Notes under the pieces: generated by a model
Seen by the model: only the letters and a program-made list of their open reading frames with translations
What the model was told of the DNA's origin: nothing
Database searches by the model: none
Origin: a virus
DNA: 34,517 nucleotides
IMG/VR virus record: IMGVR_UViG_3300034759_000283
Location: 1-34,517 of that record
Strand: one strand, 5' to 3'
Made by a program: the position numbers and the translations under genes
In this document: piece by piece, positions 2,447 to 23,479 of the stretch
How positions within the stretch are numbered: the first letter of the stretch is position 1
Layout: each line of letters starts with the position of its first letter

Positions 2447-2845
2447 TCATGTCGGTTTCGTGCCATCCCCGTGGCGGCTGGGGATATCAATCAGCTCCGG
2501 CTGCCGTTCTTCAAAATGCATGACCGCCAGGAGGTTCCAGACGGCATGGGCGAGATGATCCTCACTCGAATCGCCAGCCAGATAGAGATAGACATGCCGG
2601 AGAGCATGGTTGATCAGATCACTGGCGGGCATCCCCTTTTCCCATCCCCGCTCGCCGTATCTGGCTGCCCCCTCGGCGTACGTGGCCGCCACCCGGCGGA
2701 GCCCAATCGGGGTGATCAGGTCCCACCGCTCGCCATCGGCGTCCGTGCTGCGGATCGCCCCCGTCGAAAAGCTCTTGATCTCATTCCCTTGCTTTGTCAC
2801 GAACCCAATCGGCATCATCTCCAACCCTTCCGTTTCAAAAGTCAT
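2447..2845 (-). CDS. DUF5664 / dATP-dGTP diphosphohydrolase N-terminal-like protein
   Basis: The protein has 132 residues. Its core matches a phage family usually annotated DUF5664: a Gly-Ala-Arg-Tyr-Gly motif (EGAARYGERGWEKGMPASDLINHALRH), then YLAGDSSEDHLAHAVWNLLAVMHFEE. The conserved His and Glu/Asp residues (NHALRH, EDHLAHA) suggest a metal site as in MazG-like/all-alpha nucleotide hydrolases. Activity on nucleotides is inferred from the family name only. The start at 2845 overlaps the upstream gene by 11 bases with AAAGGA 9 bases before it; a later Met-Met pair preceded by GGAAGG is an alternative start. Confidence 0.8.
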   Translation of the reverse strand: MTFETEGLEMMPIGFVTKQGNEIKSFSTGAIRSTDADGERWDLITPIGLRRVAATYAEGAARYGERGWEKGMPASDLINHALRHVYLYLAGDSSEDHLAHAVWNLLAVMHFEERQPELIDIPSRHGDGTKPT

Positions 2846-3491
2846 CAAGCCGTGTCCTTTCAGCCAGGTCAGCCACAATGGCCCGCGGCGATCGACGCTC
2901 CCTAATCCCCGTATCCCGCTTCTGCTCCCCTTGCCCGAGGAGCTGACGGTACTGATCCATCGGCAGGACCCCCAGCTGCCGCAAGATGTGACGCTGGGGA
3001 TCGTAAAAGACAATCTCGATGCGGTGCTGCCGCTTCGCCCGTAGCCACATCTCCCGCCGGGCCTGGCCGGTCTGGCAGGGGCAGAGGGCAACGGCCGTGT
3101 AAGGGAAGGCCGGCAGCTGGCGGCTCGCCAGACACTCCGCCACGGTTTGCGGGTGGAGGATATCCACCAGGCCCGTGTCCTGGCAGTCCCGACAGCGGAC
3201 CGTCTCTTGCCCGTCGGCCACCGCCCGCCAGCGGACGGCCTCACTCCTGGCTACGATTGTGCGAGCCCATTCGGCAACAACGAAGGGGAGACGACTGTTG
3301 CGAATGGGGTCCCCCTGCAGAAGCTGCTTGCAGGCCTTCTCCAGGACCGCCGGCGGGAGTTTTTCCAGGGCCTCCTGGGCAACCTCCATGTAGCGTCCCC
3401 GGTTCTGGGTCCGGCGGAGCCAGTCATCGAAATCAGGAAAAAACTGGCCGACAATGGCCACAGCCCAAAAACGCTTATTGTCAGTCGTCAT
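2835..3491 (-). CDS. Replication-associated protein, putative helicase-loader-like (P-like position)
   Basis: The protein has 218 residues and its start overlaps the stop of the initiator-like gene as ATGA, so the two are likely made together. The N-terminal 60 residues are helical and aromatic (KRFWAVAIVGQFFPDFDDWLRR), reminiscent of small helicase-loader/inhibitor N-domains. The middle carries a Cys pair CRDC and later CPC, a possible zinc site around residues 99-138. The C-terminus is charged. No ATPase P-loop is seen, so it is not a DnaC-type AAA+ loader. The call rests on its place directly after the initiator-like gene, the order seen in lambda O-P; the sequence itself is not diagnostic. 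Confidence 0.6.
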   Translation of the reverse strand: MTTDNKRFWAVAIVGQFFPDFDDWLRRTQNRGRYMEVAQEALEKLPPAVLEKACKQLLQGDPIRNSRLPFVVAEWARTIVARSEAVRWRAVADGQETVRCRDCQDTGLVDILHPQTVAECLASRQLPAFPYTAVALCPCQTGQARREMWLRAKRQHRIEIVFYDPQRHILRQLGVLPMDQYRQLLGQGEQKRDTGIRERRSPRAIVADLAERTRLDDF

Positions 3492-4387
3492 GCATAAATG
3501 TCCTCCTCGTAATGGGGATCGTGTTTCGTGTGACGAACGCCACAGTCCACGGCACGATTCAGCCAGTTGACGAGAAACCGGGTCATTCCCCTGGACGTCT
3601 TTCGCTTGCCAGGATTGGCCATCAACCAGGCATATGCCTTACGAAGCTCATGATCCACGTCGAGGGTTTGATAACTCCTCTTGAGCATCCCGTAAAACTC
3701 GGGCGGCACCCGCCACTGGCCCTTCGAGCCCTCGCAGGGAAAAACAAGCTCCGCAATGTCGCCTGGCAGAGACGGCGGCGAGTTGACTGTGTCAACCTCG
3801 CCGCAAGATTTTTCTGTCTCCGTGCTGATAGAACATTCTCCAATACAGATTAGGTTTAAATCACTTTCTGATTGTAACGAAGGAATAGATCCTCTCTCTG
3901 TATCTGTACTGTAATGTAATGTAGTCCCGTTTTTGTCCCGATCCTCGCGGGACAAATTCGGGACAAATTCGGGACAAACACGGGACAGATGAGGGACAGT
4001 ACATTGATCAGACACTTCTCTGGACGGGAGACCTTTGTTGTGTGCCCTCTGCATGCGTTTTTTCTGCCGTTCCAGAAAACGCGACTTGGCGCCTCGTCCC
4101 AGCCATCGGTCAAAATTGGGGATGCTGATCCCGCATTCGGTGCTGGTGAGCCAGCCAACCAGTTCCAAGGCGTCCAGAAACTTTTCCGAGATATGACAGG
4201 CGGCTGCAGCCATCGCCTTGGTCATCCCCGGAAACGTACCGTCGCTGGAATGCTGCTGGGCCCAGCTCCAGAATCGTATCAGAACGCCAACGACCTCATC
4301 TGGAGATCGCTTCGTCAAGGTAGCGATCTGGACGACTTCCGGCTTGGAGGGCAAAGCAACAGAAATCGGAATCCAGTCCTCGGCCAT
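3488..4387 (-). CDS. Replication-initiator-like protein carrying an iteron array
   Basis: The protein has 299 residues. AAGGAGAG lies 8 bases before the ATG at 4387. The N-terminal 115 residues look like a winged-helix replication domain (IPISVALPSKPEVVQIATLTKRSPDEVVGVLIRFW... ISEKFLDALELVGWL), as in phage O-type and DnaD-like initiators. A basic linker with ERQKKRMQRAHNK follows. The DNA for residues about 130-147 is a five-copy 11-bp repeat. The C-terminal part (residues 215-290) is a second helical domain. Middle and 3' parts have more AT than neighbouring genes. This layout is like lambda gene O, where the origin lies inside the initiator gene. The function is inferred from layout and fold-like pattern. 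Confidence 0.75.
   Translation of the reverse strand: MAEDWIPISVALPSKPEVVQIATLTKRSPDEVVGVLIRFWSWAQQHSSDGTFPGMTKAMAAAACHISEKFLDALELVGWLTSTECGISIPNFDRWLGRGAKSRFLERQKKRMQRAHNKGLPSREVSDQCTVPHLSRVCPEFVPNLSREDRDKNGTTLHYSTDTERGSIPSLQSESDLNLICIGECSISTETEKSCGEVDTVNSPPSLPGDIAELVFPCEGSKGQWRVPPEFYGMLKRSYQTLDVDHELRKAYAWLMANPGKRKTSRGMTRFLVNWLNRAVDCGVRHTKHDPHYEEDIYA
3924..4000. repeat. Iteron array (5 direct and 2 inverted copies, 11-bp period): candidate replication origin
   Basis: On the plus strand, CGGGACAAATT-type units begin at 3948, 3959, 3970, 3981 and 3992, exactly 11 bp apart; the last two are degenerate. Two inverted GTCCCG cores lie at 3924 and 3935, also 11 bp apart. Because 11 is not a multiple of three, the copies are read in different frames, so protein repetition cannot explain them. 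An AT-rich stretch (about 3800-3935) lies directly beside the array, as expected for an unwinding element. Confidence 0.7.
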
Positions 4388-5734: not shown

Positions 5735-6607
5735 CTAACGACTCACCGTCTTCAACGAATGTTTCTTATCCACGGCCCGATTGAAGAGCTCGGTCTTCTC
5801 CTCATGGTCCAGTCTGTCATCTTCCCGAATCGTGCGGATGATCAGGTCGATCGTCTCCGCCGTGGCCTCGGCAATCGCCTTTGCATAGTCCAGTCGCGGA
5901 GGATTCTCCACGACCGCGTCCCGCTCCTCTGGCCCCTGATGACAGCACACCCTCTCCCTTTTCGATCCGGGATTCGCCCCGTTGGTGAAGGGCATATACT
6001 TGAGCAACCGCTTGATCACCGTCTTGCGGGCCATCTCGCCCCAGTCCGTCTCCCAGGGGCTATTGTCGTTCCCAAACGAGCCGCCCCGCTCGGCATTGGC
6101 CTCGATCTCCGCCCGGGACATCCACTCCACGAGGGGCCGGACCCCGTCGCGGAACCAGACCACCGCGTAGGCCCCGATCGGTTCTGCGTCCGACGCCTGG
6201 AGGTTCGGCCGATGGGAGACAATCCGTCCCTCCGGATCCCCGAAATCGAGGTTGAATTCGTCCTTGGCCCGGACCACCCGGGCCTCCACGTGCGAGACCC
6301 GCGGGTTGGCCATCGCCAGGCGAATGAGGGCCCGGTAGTCCGGGACAAAGACCGCACGGAACCCCCCGGATCGGGTCTTGTGCGGAATCAGCGTCCCCTC
6401 ATTCGTCAACCCGCTCGGGTCCAGCCCCATCGCCACCGCGTCTGTGACCGCCTCGATCAGGGAACGGTTACTACATCGACTGAGGAACTCATCCTCGGAA
6501 ACCACCCAGACGACGTTTTCGATCACCGCCTGGACGTTCAATCCGCTTGGGGCGATCGCCTCCAGACGAGGTCGAATCCGCTCCAGTTCACTGTCCAGTG
6601 TGCTCAT
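5735..6607 (-). CDS. recT: RecT-family single-strand annealing protein
   Basis: The protein has 290 residues, a normal RecT length. Family features seen: SLIEAVTDAVAMGLDPSG near residue 48, then the core RAVFVPDYRALIRLA, a middle segment with the PIGAYAVVWFRDG beta strand, and KTVIKRLLKYMP. RecT anneals complementary single strands in phage recombination and normally works with a 5'-3' exonuclease. No exonuclease gene is recognisable in this window. GAGGGGGA lies upstream of the ATG. A strong terminator separates this gene from the integrase above, so it needs its own promoter, which is not obvious. Confidence 0.9.
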   Translation of the reverse strand: MSTLDSELERIRPRLEAIAPSGLNVQAVIENVVWVVSEDEFLSRCSNRSLIEAVTDAVAMGLDPSGLTNEGTLIPHKTRSGGFRAVFVPDYRALIRLAMANPRVSHVEARVVRAKDEFNLDFGDPEGRIVSHRPNLQASDAEPIGAYAVVWFRDGVRPLVEWMSRAEIEANAERGGSFGNDNSPWETDWGEMARKTVIKRLLKYMPFTNGANPGSKRERVCCHQGPEERDAVVENPPRLDYAKAIAEATAETIDLIIRTIREDDRLDHEEKTELFNRAVDKKHSLKTVSR

Positions 6608-12453: not shown

Positions 12454-15400
12454 CTAACGACACTGGACATAGTAAATTTCTCCCTGATACGAGCCGGATC
12501 GTGGGGGGCTATCGCAGACGCAGGACGAGCTGCATCCCTCGTAGGTGCAGTCATAATAGGGCATCCAGCCGTATTCATCGTCCCACTGCCAGACACACTG
12601 GCAGCTACTGCAATGAAGTGTCGTGGTCGTGCTGCTGCTCGTACTTGTGGGCGTGGAGGTGGTGGTCGTTGACGTTGTGCTCGTCGTGGTGGTCGTCGCA
12701 GGCAGGCATGCCAAAGCAGCATAAGCTCCGTGGAATGCGCCGATCCCTTCGGGCGGCGGTGGGCACTCGCAACCCTCTGAGCATCCTGCATCTATGAGGA
12801 TCCATGTCTGCTCTTGATCGCTCCACCACCAAGTGCAATCTCCATCACAGGATGGCTGCCCCGTTGTAGTCGTCGGTATGCCGGTTGTGGTCGTGCTCGT
12901 CGTCGTGGTCGTCGGGGCTTGGGTGGTTGTTGTGCTGGTGCTGGTAGTCGGCGCCGCGGTGGTGGTCGTGCTCGTCGTCGTGGTCGTCGGGGCTTGGGTG
13001 GTTGTTGTGCTGGTGCTGGTAGTCGGCGCCGCGGTGGTGGTCGTGCTTGTCGTAGTTGTGGTCGTCGGCGGCGGTGGCGGCGGTGGCGGTGGTTGGTCGA
13101 TACACCGGGACACCACCATATCAGTCCAGATTTGCTGTTCCTCATCCCAAATAGGGCCCGGCCCATTTGGCGGAACGCACAGGCAGCCTTGAGCGCAACT
13201 TTTTGTGAGGCGCCAGACACGATCCCAGGCATCCCACTGCCACGTACATTCGCCACTGCACGGCATTCGGGCCATTAGGTCTAACTGGGATAATGTCCTC
13301 ACGCAATCCGTGTATGCGATTTGCCCACTGGCGCTAGGCGGGTAGTCGGGCGCCCGGCAATTCGGACAGTTCTCGCTGCAGTCTGAAAATGCCAAATTCC
13401 AAATGCCAGTTGGTTCTCCTCCAGACAAGTTAACAAATTGTCCACGCCATTCACAGTGTCCGGTGCATGGGCATATCCGTGAGAATTTCGATTGATCGCT
13501 CGTGCAGCCAACGACATAGAAGCCTGGCGCGGGAAAATCCTCGGGACATACGACAGGACAGCCACAAGCCGGGCCCGACGCTCCTGTGGCACAGGTGTTG
13601 CCCTTTGAGCTAATCGATATCCGGCCTGCGTAATCGCTTGTAACCTCATAATAACACATCCCTATACAGGCGCAAGACGTGGTGGTTTGGGTTTGCGGAA
13701 TACAACCGATCGTGAATGTGTCATTCTGGGGCATGATGCCCAAGGATTCGCAAGGGATCGGCGCGCACTTGCAGCCGCTGCTGCATTGTTGCCGCAATAT
13801 CCGCCCGTCCGGATAAACTTCGCACTGGCCTGTGCAGGGGCCGCAGGTGGTGGTCGTGGCGGCCTCGGACGGACTTAGGCAGGGGACGGCAACAGTATGG
13901 CCGGGCTGCATCGGATAGCAGGGAGGGGGAGAACAGGCGCAGTCCGCCGGGCAAGTATTCGAGATGATCTGGACCGCCGAATCAATCACGGCGTAAAGGC
14001 AATACCCGGCGCATGGTCTAGTCGTCGTGGTGGAGCTCGTGGAGCTCGTGCTGGAGCTCGTGGTGCTGGAGGTGGTCGTGGGGGTGATAGTGGTTGTCGT
14101 GCTCGTGGGCGGCGCCCCGCGGCATAGGGATTGCCGGCACTCTCCGGCTTGCGTCCCGGGAAAAGGCGGGGCCGCGCAAGGGCATTCGGGAGGGCAATTT
14201 CCGCCGTTCCAGGAAGACCCATCCCAGGTCATGATACAGGGGCTCCCGCAGCCCAGACTCGTCGTTGTCGGGGGCGGCGGTTGAGATGGCGGCGGGCAGG
14301 GATAGGGCCAGGTCGTCGTTGTCTCGCAAATGCAATGGCAGGAGGTGTAGGCAATGCGCGAGCAATCCGGATTGCTCGGGGGCTGAGAAGGTGGATCACA
14401 GACGCAGCTGAGGCATTCGGCCTCCTGGTCCCCAGTTTTGCAGGGGCAGAGGCGTCCCACCCGCCAGCGTTCGGTGCAGGTGTCCTTGGTCTTAATCCAG
14501 CGGTTCCAGTCGAGCGACCAGATCCACTCGCAGCCACCGGTGCAGGGTGGACACGTCGTGGGGGTTGGCGCTGGGCGTTGGCCGCAGTTGGTATGGTAGA
14601 GGTCGCACTGGTCGCGGGGCTCCCGGTCCGGGTAGGGGCAGGGGCATTCGGGGCAGCAGTCGCGGGCGACCAGGCCCCAGCCGAGGGTCCCGCCCCAGCC
14701 CAGGACCGCCTTCCACTGGCAACCTTTGCAGCCTGTCCCGCAGCAGCAGTCGCGGGTGGTCGTGGTCGAGGTCCACGTCTCGGGGCAGCAGGGGTGCCCG
14801 GGGGGATAGGGGCAGGGGGTCGTTGATCCCGGGGCCGTGGTCGTCGTGCTCGATGTCCCGCGGCAATCGGGTGTCGGGAGTCCATAGTCTGAGCGGACGC
14901 AATCGGTGGAGGCGGAGAGGCAGTCGCCCCCACCGCAGAACTGCGGGGGGATGCACTGACAGCCTTCTGCGCAATCCTCTGTGCTTAGGGTCCAGGCCCG
15001 GTTCTCCTCGTCCCACGCCCACTGGCAGCTCCCGCTGCAGGGTGGGGTTGTGGTCGTGACGCAGGGGACGCTGATCTCCCAGGAGTCGCCGGGGCTGCAC
15101 CGCTGAGGCTGCGGGGCGCACTGGCATCCGTCGGGGCAGGTCGCATAGACGATTTCCGCCGTCCCGTCTTCACAGCGCCAGGTGCAGGTGCAGGGTTCGC
15201 AGTTGCCAGTTCCCCACGCGTATGGTGAGGGGGTGGTGGTTGTGGCGCTCCCCTCGCCCCGGCAAGTCAGAGCATAAGTCGCGGGTTCGACGGCCGTATG
15301 ATGGGCGGAGAGATAAATGATGGGCTGCGGGCCGAAGTGATACTCCACCGCATCGATATCGGAGTAGGCTTTTCGTTGCAGGATATTGAATGATCCGGGG

Positions 15401-19063: not shown

Positions 19064-20628
19064 TTCTTCGGACGCTTGTTGAAGAGCTCAGGTGGCTTCT
19101 GCCGCTGTGGAATATCGATCTGCACGTCGCGGAACCGCTGCATGCGGTCGAACCACCAGTCTTGAGGGCCCTTGCCTTTCTCCACCCCCAGTTTGTTCAG
19201 GCCCCATTCCAGCTGCCTGTTGAGCCAGCCCGCCGAACGTTCCAGCAACTTCAACCCGGTGGCGACTTTGATCATCTCGCCGGCGGCCAGCCCGGCGGTT
19301 CGTCCCAGGTTGGCCAGGTTGGTCCCCAGGATTCGGAGATCTTCTCCCCCCCGCCGGTAGCGTTCAGCCATCGCGGCGTAGAGCCGGGTCGTGAGGTAGG
19401 TCCCCTCGGCGACCCGCCGCTGCTCCTGGAGGCGGGCGGCCTCCAGCTGGGCGGCCAGGCCGGCCATCCCGGAATGGACCCGCGTGAAGGACTCGGCCGT
19501 CCGCTGGATGGCAAAGACGGAGTCCTCAAGGCCCCTTGCCCACCGCACAAGGGCCACCGTGGCTGAGGCCAGGGCCGTGACCAGGGCCAGGGCCGCCCCC
19601 ACTGGCCCGGTAAGGACCGCGGCCAGCCGGGCCAGGGCCCCACCGACCTGACCGATCATCCCCACGAAGGCCGCCCCGCGGGCCAGCGTCCCCTGGCTGA
19701 TCCCTGCAGCTTGGGCAGTCTGGATGGCCTGCGGGCCCCGCATCGCCACCGGGGCCCTCCGCAGACTGGCAAAGAGCTGACGTGTGCTTCCCCGCTCGGC
19801 AAACTGCGTCAGAGACCGCCCGACGTACTGCCGGAGCGGCGAACGACTCCGCTCCAGCCGCCACCGCCAGACCCGCCCGCGACGGGTCCAGAGGAGGTCC
19901 TGGAGCCGCCCCGCCAATCCTGAGGCCCGCCGCCTTGGGCCTGTAACCCGCACAGCTCCCCGCCCCCTCACGGTCCGTCGACTAAGCCCCTCCACCCGCC
20001 CTTCCGGCCGTCTCCGCTGCTCGACGAGCTGCCGGGCAATCGTCTCGGCCGAAGGTGTGAGTTTCTCCAGCTGTCCCAGGAGACGTTTCTCCTGCCCGCC
20101 CGAGATCGCCTCGTGTACGGTCCGTCGACTAAGCCCCTCCACCCGCCCTTCCGGCCGTCTCCGCTGCTCGACGAGCTGCCGGACAATCGTCTCGGCCGAA
20201 GGTGTGAGTTTCTCCAGCTGTCCCAGGAGACGTTTCTCCTGCCCGCCCGAGATCGCCTCGTGTGTGGCTGGGGGCCGCGTCCCCTGGAGGGCCCGCGTCA
20301 GGGCCCGGGCATTGACCTCCTGCAGGACATCGAGATTGACCACGGTCGAGGAGGCCAGGGGCTGCTCCCGGCCCTGGGGAAGGATCCGCGGATCGAAGAG
20401 GACCGGACTGACGGCCGGTTGCGTCTGCAGACCGTGGGCGATCTGGCTGAGCCGCTCCCGACCCTGGGGAAGGATCCGCGGATCGGAGAGGAGCGGACTG
20501 ACGGCCGGTTGCGTCTGCAGACCGTGGGCGATCTGGCTGAGCCGCTCCCGACCCTGCGTCAGGGCCTTCTCGAGGGCCTCCGCCCCGCGGACAATCTCCT
20601 CGACGATCTGGGCAAATTCACTCAACAT
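19060..20628 (-). CDS. Tape measure protein, 522 residues, with internal tandem repeats
   Basis: ATG at 20628 lies inside the end of the chaperone fusion; a TTG 6 bases earlier is less likely. The N-terminal half is charged and helical and holds two exact-type tandem repeats, of 30 residues (90 bp) and 49 residues (147 bp). The second half has a hydrophobic stretch (FVGMIGQVGGALARL...VGAALALVTALAS), typical for membrane insertion during DNA entry. At 522 residues it is short, which would predict a tail of about 80 nm by the usual 1.5 angstrom per residue rule. It follows the chaperone frameshift pair, the classical position. Confidence 0.85.
   Translation of the reverse strand: MLSEFAQIVEEIVRGAEALEKALTQGRERLSQIAHGLQTQPAVSPLLSDPRILPQGRERLSQIAHGLQTQPAVSPVLFDPRILPQGREQPLASSTVVNLDVLQEVNARALTRALQGTRPPATHEAISGGQEKRLLGQLEKLTPSAETIVRQLVEQRRRPEGRVEGLSRRTVHEAISGGQEKRLLGQLEKLTPSAETIARQLVEQRRRPEGRVEGLSRRTVRGRGAVRVTGPRRRASGLAGRLQDLLWTRRGRVWRWRLERSRSPLRQYVGRSLTQFAERGSTRQLFASLRRAPVAMRGPQAIQTAQAAGISQGTLARGAAFVGMIGQVGGALARLAAVLTGPVGAALALVTALASATVALVRWARGLEDSVFAIQRTAESFTRVHSGMAGLAAQLEAARLQEQRRVAEGTYLTTRLYAAMAERYRRGGEDLRILGTNLANLGRTAGLAAGEMIKVATGLKLLERSAGWLNRQLEWGLNKLGVEKGKGPQDWWFDRMQRFRDVQIDIPQRQKPPELFNKRPKK
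19970..20263. repeat. 147-bp tandem repeat in the tape measure gene
   Basis: Copies 19970-20116 and 20117-20263 are almost identical and encode 49-residue units (HEAISGGQEKRLL... GLSRRTV). A whole number of codons keeps the frame. In tape measure proteins such duplication lengthens the tail. Confidence 0.9.
20372..20551. repeat. 90-bp tandem repeat in the tape measure gene
   Basis: Copies 20372-20461 and 20462-20551 differ at only a few bases and encode 30-residue units (GRERLSQIAHGLQTQ...). The few differences are non-synonymous (LLSDP versus VLFDP), so the duplication is recent. Confidence 0.9.
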
Positions 20629-22954: not shown

Positions 22955-22986
22955 ATTATAGCGGCCCATGAAACGGGTTCTGGGAC
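22955..22986 (-). promoter_or_regulatory. Late promoter P3 (GTCCC-N21-TATAAT), leaderless tail operon
   Basis: GTCCC (22986-22982) is followed after exactly 21 bases by TATAAT (22960-22955), then 7 bases and ATG 22947. The -10 is perfect, but no good -35 lies at 17 bases. That fits an activator-dependent start, with the GTCCC box and the nearby GGTTATCA sites as candidate contacts. Confidence 0.6.
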
Positions 22987-22992
22987 AAAAAG

Positions 22993-23089
22993 TGATAACC
23001 AATCCTGATAACCAGGCGGATCAACCAGCGGGTGTTATGCGGCCTTTTCCACGGGGTGCCGAGAGCCAAGTGATAACCGGCTGATAACC
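22993..23089. promoter_or_regulatory. Four TGATAACC boxes between divergent promoters
   Basis: TGATAACC occurs at 22993-23000, 23006-23013, 23071-23078 and 23082-23089, in two pairs with 13- and 11-bp spacing. The block lies between the leaderless tail promoter on the minus strand and a leaderless-looking start on the plus strand (TATATT, 6 bases, ATG 23117). The boxes are probably operators of one regulator acting on both. Confidence 0.55.
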
Positions 23090-23116
23090 CGGAAGATTTT
23101 TGCCTATATTAGCCAA

Positions 23117-23479
23117 ATGTCCACAAAAACGCCCCACGGCAATGCAAGAAGAGTGACTAAGTTGGGAATTGAAAATCACTTATGCAACGATGTCCACGCC
23201 AGACTGTCCACAAATTCGTATCTGGACAGTGGACAGTGGACACTGAGACAAGAATTGCTTGACGGGCGCAGAGACGGACTGGAGATCGTTAATCTTCCGA
23301 CCAGCCTTTGCCGCAACGGCGGGGGCGTAGGCCACGGGCTTCAAGAGCATGAACTCGGAATCCGTATTGTCAACGGAGGTTCGCCGGAAGAAGAAAGGGC
23401 CATTATTCTCGGGAAATACCGCCCAAAAAAGATTTCGCCGGAGGTTCGCCGGAGCTGGCCGGAAGGCTTCAAGTCTTGA
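23117..23479 (+). CDS. Possible plus-strand protein, 120 residues
   Basis: TATATT ends 6 bases before ATG 23117, the leaderless layout seen at minus-strand module heads, and a T-tailed terminator lies downstream at 23771-23802. The protein reads STKTPHGNARRVTKLGIENH... EEERAIILGKYRPKK and shows no domain. The third-codon GC is clearly lower than in the structural genes, so it may be newly acquired or not coding. A further frame from 23476 would run into the terminator and is not called. It could be a lysogeny or timing regulator divergent from the tail operon. Confidence 0.35.
   Translation: MSTKTPHGNARRVTKLGIENHLCNDVHARLSTNSYLDSGQWTLRQELLDGRRDGLEIVNLPTSLCRNGGGVGHGLQEHELGIRIVNGGSPEEERAIILGKYRPKKISPEVRRSWPEGFKS

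Follow-up and report, generated by a model that had tools for sequence, protein, structure and literature searches.

The repeat array at positions 3924-3998 of the window, which is the whole stretch of 34,517 nucleotides analysed here, is very probably the iteron part of a phage replication origin lying inside the gene of its own putative initiator. The array has a regular anatomy, its repeats are selected at the DNA level independently of the codons, and the convergent module which they form is conserved at one place in the genes of the initiator family.

The gene carrying the array (3488-4387) had been proposed to be initiator-like, and its product indeed belongs to the phage replication initiators: residues 1-127 matched phrog_2509 (“replication initiation protein”) in a profile search with an E-value of 3e-31, and a further match was obtained for phrog_9474 (7e-24). 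The start of the gene at 4387 is backed by the alignment of relatives. No Pfam family was reported for the protein and no match to the lambda O family was listed. A Pfam match to a Rep_3/RepA-type plasmid initiator domain was not detected either, although a distant relation to this type may exist.

Based on the AlphaFold2 model (80 sequences, mean pLDDT 86.6), the N-terminal domain is predicted to be winged-helix-like with a basic C-terminal helix (residues 98-118). The best matches of the model in BFVD, which covers viral structures, include phage replisome organizers. The best fold matches in the PDB are mostly general winged-helix proteins which, with E-values above 0.03 and Z-scores of up to 7.0, are too weak to provide a family name, and no solved structures related to the domain by sequence were found. 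The features of the gene and the putative origin are the following (coordinates, strand, feature and supporting evidence):

3488..4387, minus strand: replication initiator gene, 299 aa (phrog_2509 match; approximately 30-45% identity to the N-termini of relatives)
4013..4387, minus strand: predicted N-terminal winged-helix-like DNA-binding domain, residues 1-125 (AlphaFold2, BFVD and PDB fold matches)
4070..4072, minus strand: codon of E106, the residue best tracking the iteron core across the family (mutual information)
3993..3998, minus strand: direct iteron 1, TGTCCC without the final G (sequence, synonymous shuffles)
3981..3987, minus strand: direct iteron 2, TGTCCCG (sequence, synonymous shuffles)
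3970..3976, minus strand: direct iteron 3, TGTCCCG (sequence, synonymous shuffles)
3959..3965, minus strand: direct iteron 4, TGTCCCG (sequence, synonymous shuffles)
3948..3954, minus strand: direct iteron 5, TGTCCCG, adjoining the spacer (sequence, synonymous shuffles)
3941..3947, no strand: 7-bp spacer, the axis of convergence (length kept in the family, see below)
3934..3940, plus strand: inverted iteron 1, TGTCCCG (sequence)
3924..3929, plus strand: inverted iteron 2, GTCCCG (sequence)
3894..3923, minus strand: tract TACATTACATTACAGTACAGATACAGAGAG with a 5-bp period, corresponding in position to the (GAGAA)n tract of the family (TRF, period 5)
3838..3937, no strand: AT-rich stretch, candidate DNA-unwinding element (25-bp bins with 56-68% AT)

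The array and the adjacent DNA

On the plus strand GGGACA starts at positions 3949, 3960, 3971, 3982 and 3993, i.e. in exact steps of 11 bp, and copies of the opposite orientation are located at 3924 (GTCCCG) and 3934 (TGTCCCG), their GTCCCG cores also being 11 bp apart. TRF assigned a period of 11 to the array. The gene is encoded on the minus strand, with respect to which the first five copies are direct and the other two inverted. This coding strand reads TGTCCC five times at 11 bp, followed by the 7-bp spacer, the inverted pair with its 11-bp distance, TACATTACATTACAGTACAGATACAG and AT-rich DNA. The copy number, orientation and period given in the original prediction are confirmed. The core TTTGTCCCG which it named is present in the array, but only four of the seven copies contain it in full.

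The array begins approximately 390 nt and ends approximately 465 nt into the coding sequence, directly behind the N-terminal domain. Its copies span all three reading frames and encode unlike peptides (TVPHLSRVCPEFVPNLSREDRDKNG), and the linker encoded by the array is a non-repetitive peptide. None of 2000 synonymous codon shuffles of the gene 3488-4387 yielded five identical 6-mers chained at 11 bp, the largest chain comprising four. The proposed selection of the repeats at the DNA level is therefore borne out by the failure of synonymous shuffles, of this gene as well as of its relatives, to produce the module.

Behind the last inverted copy the window carries a TACAT/TACAG tract, unlike the usual purine GAGAA, with a lag-5 identity of 0.56 (p 0.018, synonymous shuffles). 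In the family the 30 nt that follow the last of the inverted copies reach a lag-5 identity of 0.68, while synonymous shuffles give 0.41 (z 25.8), and the tract consists of 85% purines, mostly as GAGAA/GAAGA. Within nt 330-520, a 25-nt stretch with a lag-5 identity of 0.8 or higher was detected in 65% of the genes versus 1.3% of the shuffles. The 5-bp period is, like the 11-bp period, off the codon frame, and the period-5 purine-rich tract of the family is unexplained by codon choice. The tract may have a role in strand opening or loading. The AT-rich DNA predicted next to the repeats was confirmed, with 56-68% AT in 3838-3937 (several 25-bp bins at 64-68%) versus 38% in the genome.

In the proposed mechanism the N-terminal winged-helix domain of the initiator would bind each TGTCCCG half-site, and the spacing of about one helical turn would align the bound initiators along a single face of the DNA, the direct and the inverted set facing each other across the 7-bp spacer. 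The bound complex may then strain and open the adjacent pentamer and AT-rich DNA (3838-3923), after which recruitment of a helicase loader and of the replicative helicase of the host would follow.

RusA and RecT are found in the neighbourhood of the initiator, and the window also carries tailed-phage structural genes. The gene directly behind the initiator (2835-3491, 218 aa) occupies the place where a helicase loader is expected. It had no match in Pfam or PHROGs, only sub-cutoff matches in NCBIfam and no match in a phage tblastn search, none of which revealed a recognisable similarity to helicase loaders. Its similarity is confined to one identical contig and one weak partial match, and its single-sequence model is poor (pLDDT 43.8).

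Relatives of the initiator and the residue tracking the iteron core

In phage records, relatives of the initiator bear the annotation of a replication initiation protein, a primosomal protein I or a protein O. Directly downstream of several of their genes lies one encoding a DnaC- or P-type helicase loader. Among the relatives collected first, the arrays have other cores (GTAACG, GTCCGC) and were detected at nt 333-404, behind the same domain. Two direct copies and one inverted copy of an exact 6-mer were present in 64 of 102 genes versus 2.5% of synonymous shuffles, and in most genes of this set that lack an exact call the module was visible with mismatches on inspection.

A larger set comprised 349 genes, of which 203 were non-redundant. 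Among the latter the commonest start-to-start distance of convergent copies was 13 bp, and this convergent 13-bp module was found in 142 of the 203 genes, mostly at nt 337-386, whereas synonymous codon shuffles gave an expectation of 10.9. Both checks proposed for the repeats, their presence in close homologues and their conservation against synonymous expectation (142/203 vs 10.9), were therefore positive, the module being present in most of the approximately 350 relatives. The window shares the 13-bp convergent distance and combines it with the core GTCCCG and 11-bp flanks. Four main cores occur in the family (GTAAC, GTCCG, GTCAC and GTCCC). About one quarter of the non-redundant relatives contain fewer than three exact copies of these cores; several of those inspected show degenerate copies or other cores.

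A scan by DNA only, using the pattern TGTCCCGN4TGTCCCGN7CGGGACA derived from the window array, returned 13 viral contigs, while the reversed control pattern gave no matches. In ten of the 13 the array is inside an initiator gene belonging to the phrog_2509-type family (L007, which is the window's own twin, L030, L031, L032, L033, L034, L036, L037, L038 and L040); the remaining three (L035, L039, L041) look unlike family members. The array is located behind the N-terminal domain in nine of the ten, the matched copy of L037 being inside the domain. Additional iterons within the codons of the N-terminal domain (approximately nt 54-225) were observed in L012, L013, L025, L037, L040, L095 and L121, either besides or in place of the array behind the domain. 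In L030, L033, L034, L036 and L038 the initiators are short (approximately 152 aa) and end soon after the array, so that the protein comprises little beyond the DNA-binding domain.

The oriJ of the Rac prophage of E. coli K-12 was considered as a member and rejected since YdaU of K-12 is a DUF1376 protein of another family; of the Rac records only MN652886 contains a phrog_2509-type gene. The DUF1376-type ydaU gene of the K-12 Rac prophage (L362:6120-6977) carries in-gene repeats of its own (GTTCAAAC/GTTTGAAC), followed by a AAAGATACAGATAAAGATC-like tract, and these repeats are a candidate for oriJ.

Residue 106 of the initiator, which in the window sits in the basic C-terminal helix, ranked first among the N-terminal columns by mutual information with the core, at 1.34 bits above shuffles compared to 1.01 for the next column. 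Its codon is clear of the called direct copies by a gap of at least 9 nt. Among the non-redundant relatives the GTAAC core is accompanied by T (58) or G (4), GTCCG by D (30) or E (14), GTCAC by A in 24 of 33 and GTCCC by E (4), N (2) or A (1). With E106 and GTCCC the window matches L031, L040 and L056, and Vibrio-type proteins with D and a GTCAC core are an exception to the pairing. Close relatives differing in the core also differ at residue 106 (L341/L342/L350): L341 and L342, which are 75% identical, have E with GTCCG and T with GTAAC, respectively. The same holds for L229 (D with GTCCG) and L230 (A with GTCAC), 84% identical to each other, but this pair is imperfect as the L229 array is mixed and includes one inverted copy TGTGAC. 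L056/L071 was dropped as a core switch because both have GTCCC cores. A tree test for residue 106 provided two supported independent contrasts, for which no significance is claimed, and since core switches on well-supported branches are limited to these two, the co-variation of residue 106 with the iteron core across the family is suggestive.

It is conceivable, though rather doubtful, that the members of this large family carry in their coding sequence a portable replicon of approximately 150 bp, composed of a DNA-binding helix, the convergent array of its cognate half-sites and a tract of period 5 for opening, in which specificity would be retuned mainly via residue 106 and the tract would be a so far unnamed element of strand opening or helicase loading.

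Comparison with known phage origins

Origins inside initiator genes are already known from lambda, Stx phages, SPP1 and lactococcal phages, and by analogy the window case would work alike. In lambda and the Stx phages P27 and 933W the origin is located in the middle of the initiator gene, its repeated binding sites preceding an AT-rich region, and additional iterons lead to a longer protein (PMC7466680). The window resembles lambda O in having repeats inside the initiator gene and an adjacent AT-rich region. In lambda, however, O dimers bind 19-bp iterons that are almost perfect inverted repeats (PMC5043065), whereas the unit in the window is a 7-bp non-palindromic core repeated at 11 bp in two sets converging on a 7-bp spacer, palindromic iterons of 18-19 bp as in lambda-type origins being absent. 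The period-5 tract further sets the window and its family apart from lambda.

The origin oriL of SPP1 lies in the initiator gene 38 (product gp38), where direct repeats are combined with an AT-rich unwinding element (PMC6316719). A second origin, oriR, exists in SPP1, while no second TGTCCC cluster was detected in the 34,517-nt window. The replisome organizers Orf13 of TP901-1 and Rep of Tuc2009 likewise bind repeats in their own genes (PMC8965321), but these lactococcal proteins were not recovered by sequence comparison with the window initiator. The phrog_2509 proteins of epsilon15, TL-2011b, CP2 and phiPSA1 share the N-terminal domain and the in-gene module at nt 333-404. Their cores are GTCCGC or GTAACG, combined with a GAGAA tract, as opposed to GTCCCG and TACAT/TACAG in the window, which moreover has five direct copies whereas most phrog_2509 relatives have one to three. 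Repeats in the O-like gene 56 of Pseudomonas phage MD8 were noted by its authors without further analysis (PMC8508860).

A published description of the convergent module was not found in the open literature, the key reviews lying outside the search, and its novelty at the family level is provisional. From an unannotated gene of an uncultivated phage the analysis leads to a located putative origin, and the DNA signature points to such origins in hundreds of phages and prophages, some of them from Proteobacteria, Verrucomicrobia and Planctomycetes. Since the initiators form a natural series in which the core and one residue change together, origin specificity becomes directly testable, and the conserved tract with its 5-bp period could explain how such origins open, which makes it a concrete candidate for testing.

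Other possible roles of the array and further sites in the window

Many initiators of iteron systems autoregulate, and the array is located downstream of the gene start in the direction of transcription, where it might act as an operator or roadblock limiting the transcription of the initiator. Such a function seems unlikely given that the array lies far from the gene start and is linked to AT-rich DNA and a conserved period-5 tract, for which an operator would have no use; the in-gene repeats of the lambda, SPP1 and lactococcal initiators are moreover origins (PMC7466680, PMC6316719, PMC8965321). That the repeats are a mere by-product of a repetitive protein linker is hardly credible: they do fall between the N-terminal domain and the variable C-terminal part, but their 11-bp period crosses all three frames, the encoded peptides are non-repetitive and synonymous shuffles fail to give the module. 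Arrays of short iterons in plasmids also serve control functions, which would speak for a partition, incompatibility or packaging site situated in the initiator gene by chance. We consider this very improbable since the array is tied to, and co-varies with, the DNA-binding domain of the initiator across the family, and the window genes scanned included none recognisable as a partition gene.

The original prediction had furthermore proposed that the promoters P1-P3 share the TGTCCCG core and that one protein couples the origin to late transcription. All sites in the window were scanned for exact matches, matches with one mismatch and combinations of the box with TATAAT, each against shuffled controls. 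Outside the array TGTCCCG occurs 14 times, a mild excess over the 6-7 expected, and exact TTTGTCCCG occurs twice versus 0.3-0.5 expected by chance, at 6341 (recT) and 22800 (tail-sheath-like gene). Both of the latter sites are, however, located within coding sequence, and no TGTCCCG site outside the array in the window is paired with another exact copy at a distance of up to 40 bp. Allowing one mismatch, TTTGTCCCG gave 16 matches in total versus 9.4 +/- 3.0 expected, five of them being the array itself. The window has a single TATAAT (22955-22960, minus strand), and 21 bp upstream of it the near-match TTTGTCCCA is found (22981-22989); by chance 0.3 promoter-like combinations of this kind are expected, so that it provides no evidence. 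The common promoter core consequently fails as an exact match, the scans do not favour the coupling by one protein, and a double role of the array in replication and late transcription has very little probability. As regards the putative origin itself, the GC skew suggested as a check is without a sign change at 4 kb; sign changes occur near 9 kb and 19 kb, though most recognised genes are located on the minus strand.

Four copies of GGTTATCA[CG] on the minus strand, arranged in two close pairs, were observed at 22990-23095, where they adjoin the single TATAAT of the window and lie upstream of a tail-sheath-like gene; this region looks like an operator. A cluster of TGTCCA and inverted TGGACAG at 23118-23243 is largely intergenic and differs from the origin core beyond TGTCC. 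The window also contains tandem duplications of 147 bp (99%; 19970-20263) and 90 bp (97%; 20364-20556) in a tape-measure-like gene, as well as a 75-bp tandem repeat (95%; 12882-13064) in a gene encoding 1412 aa.
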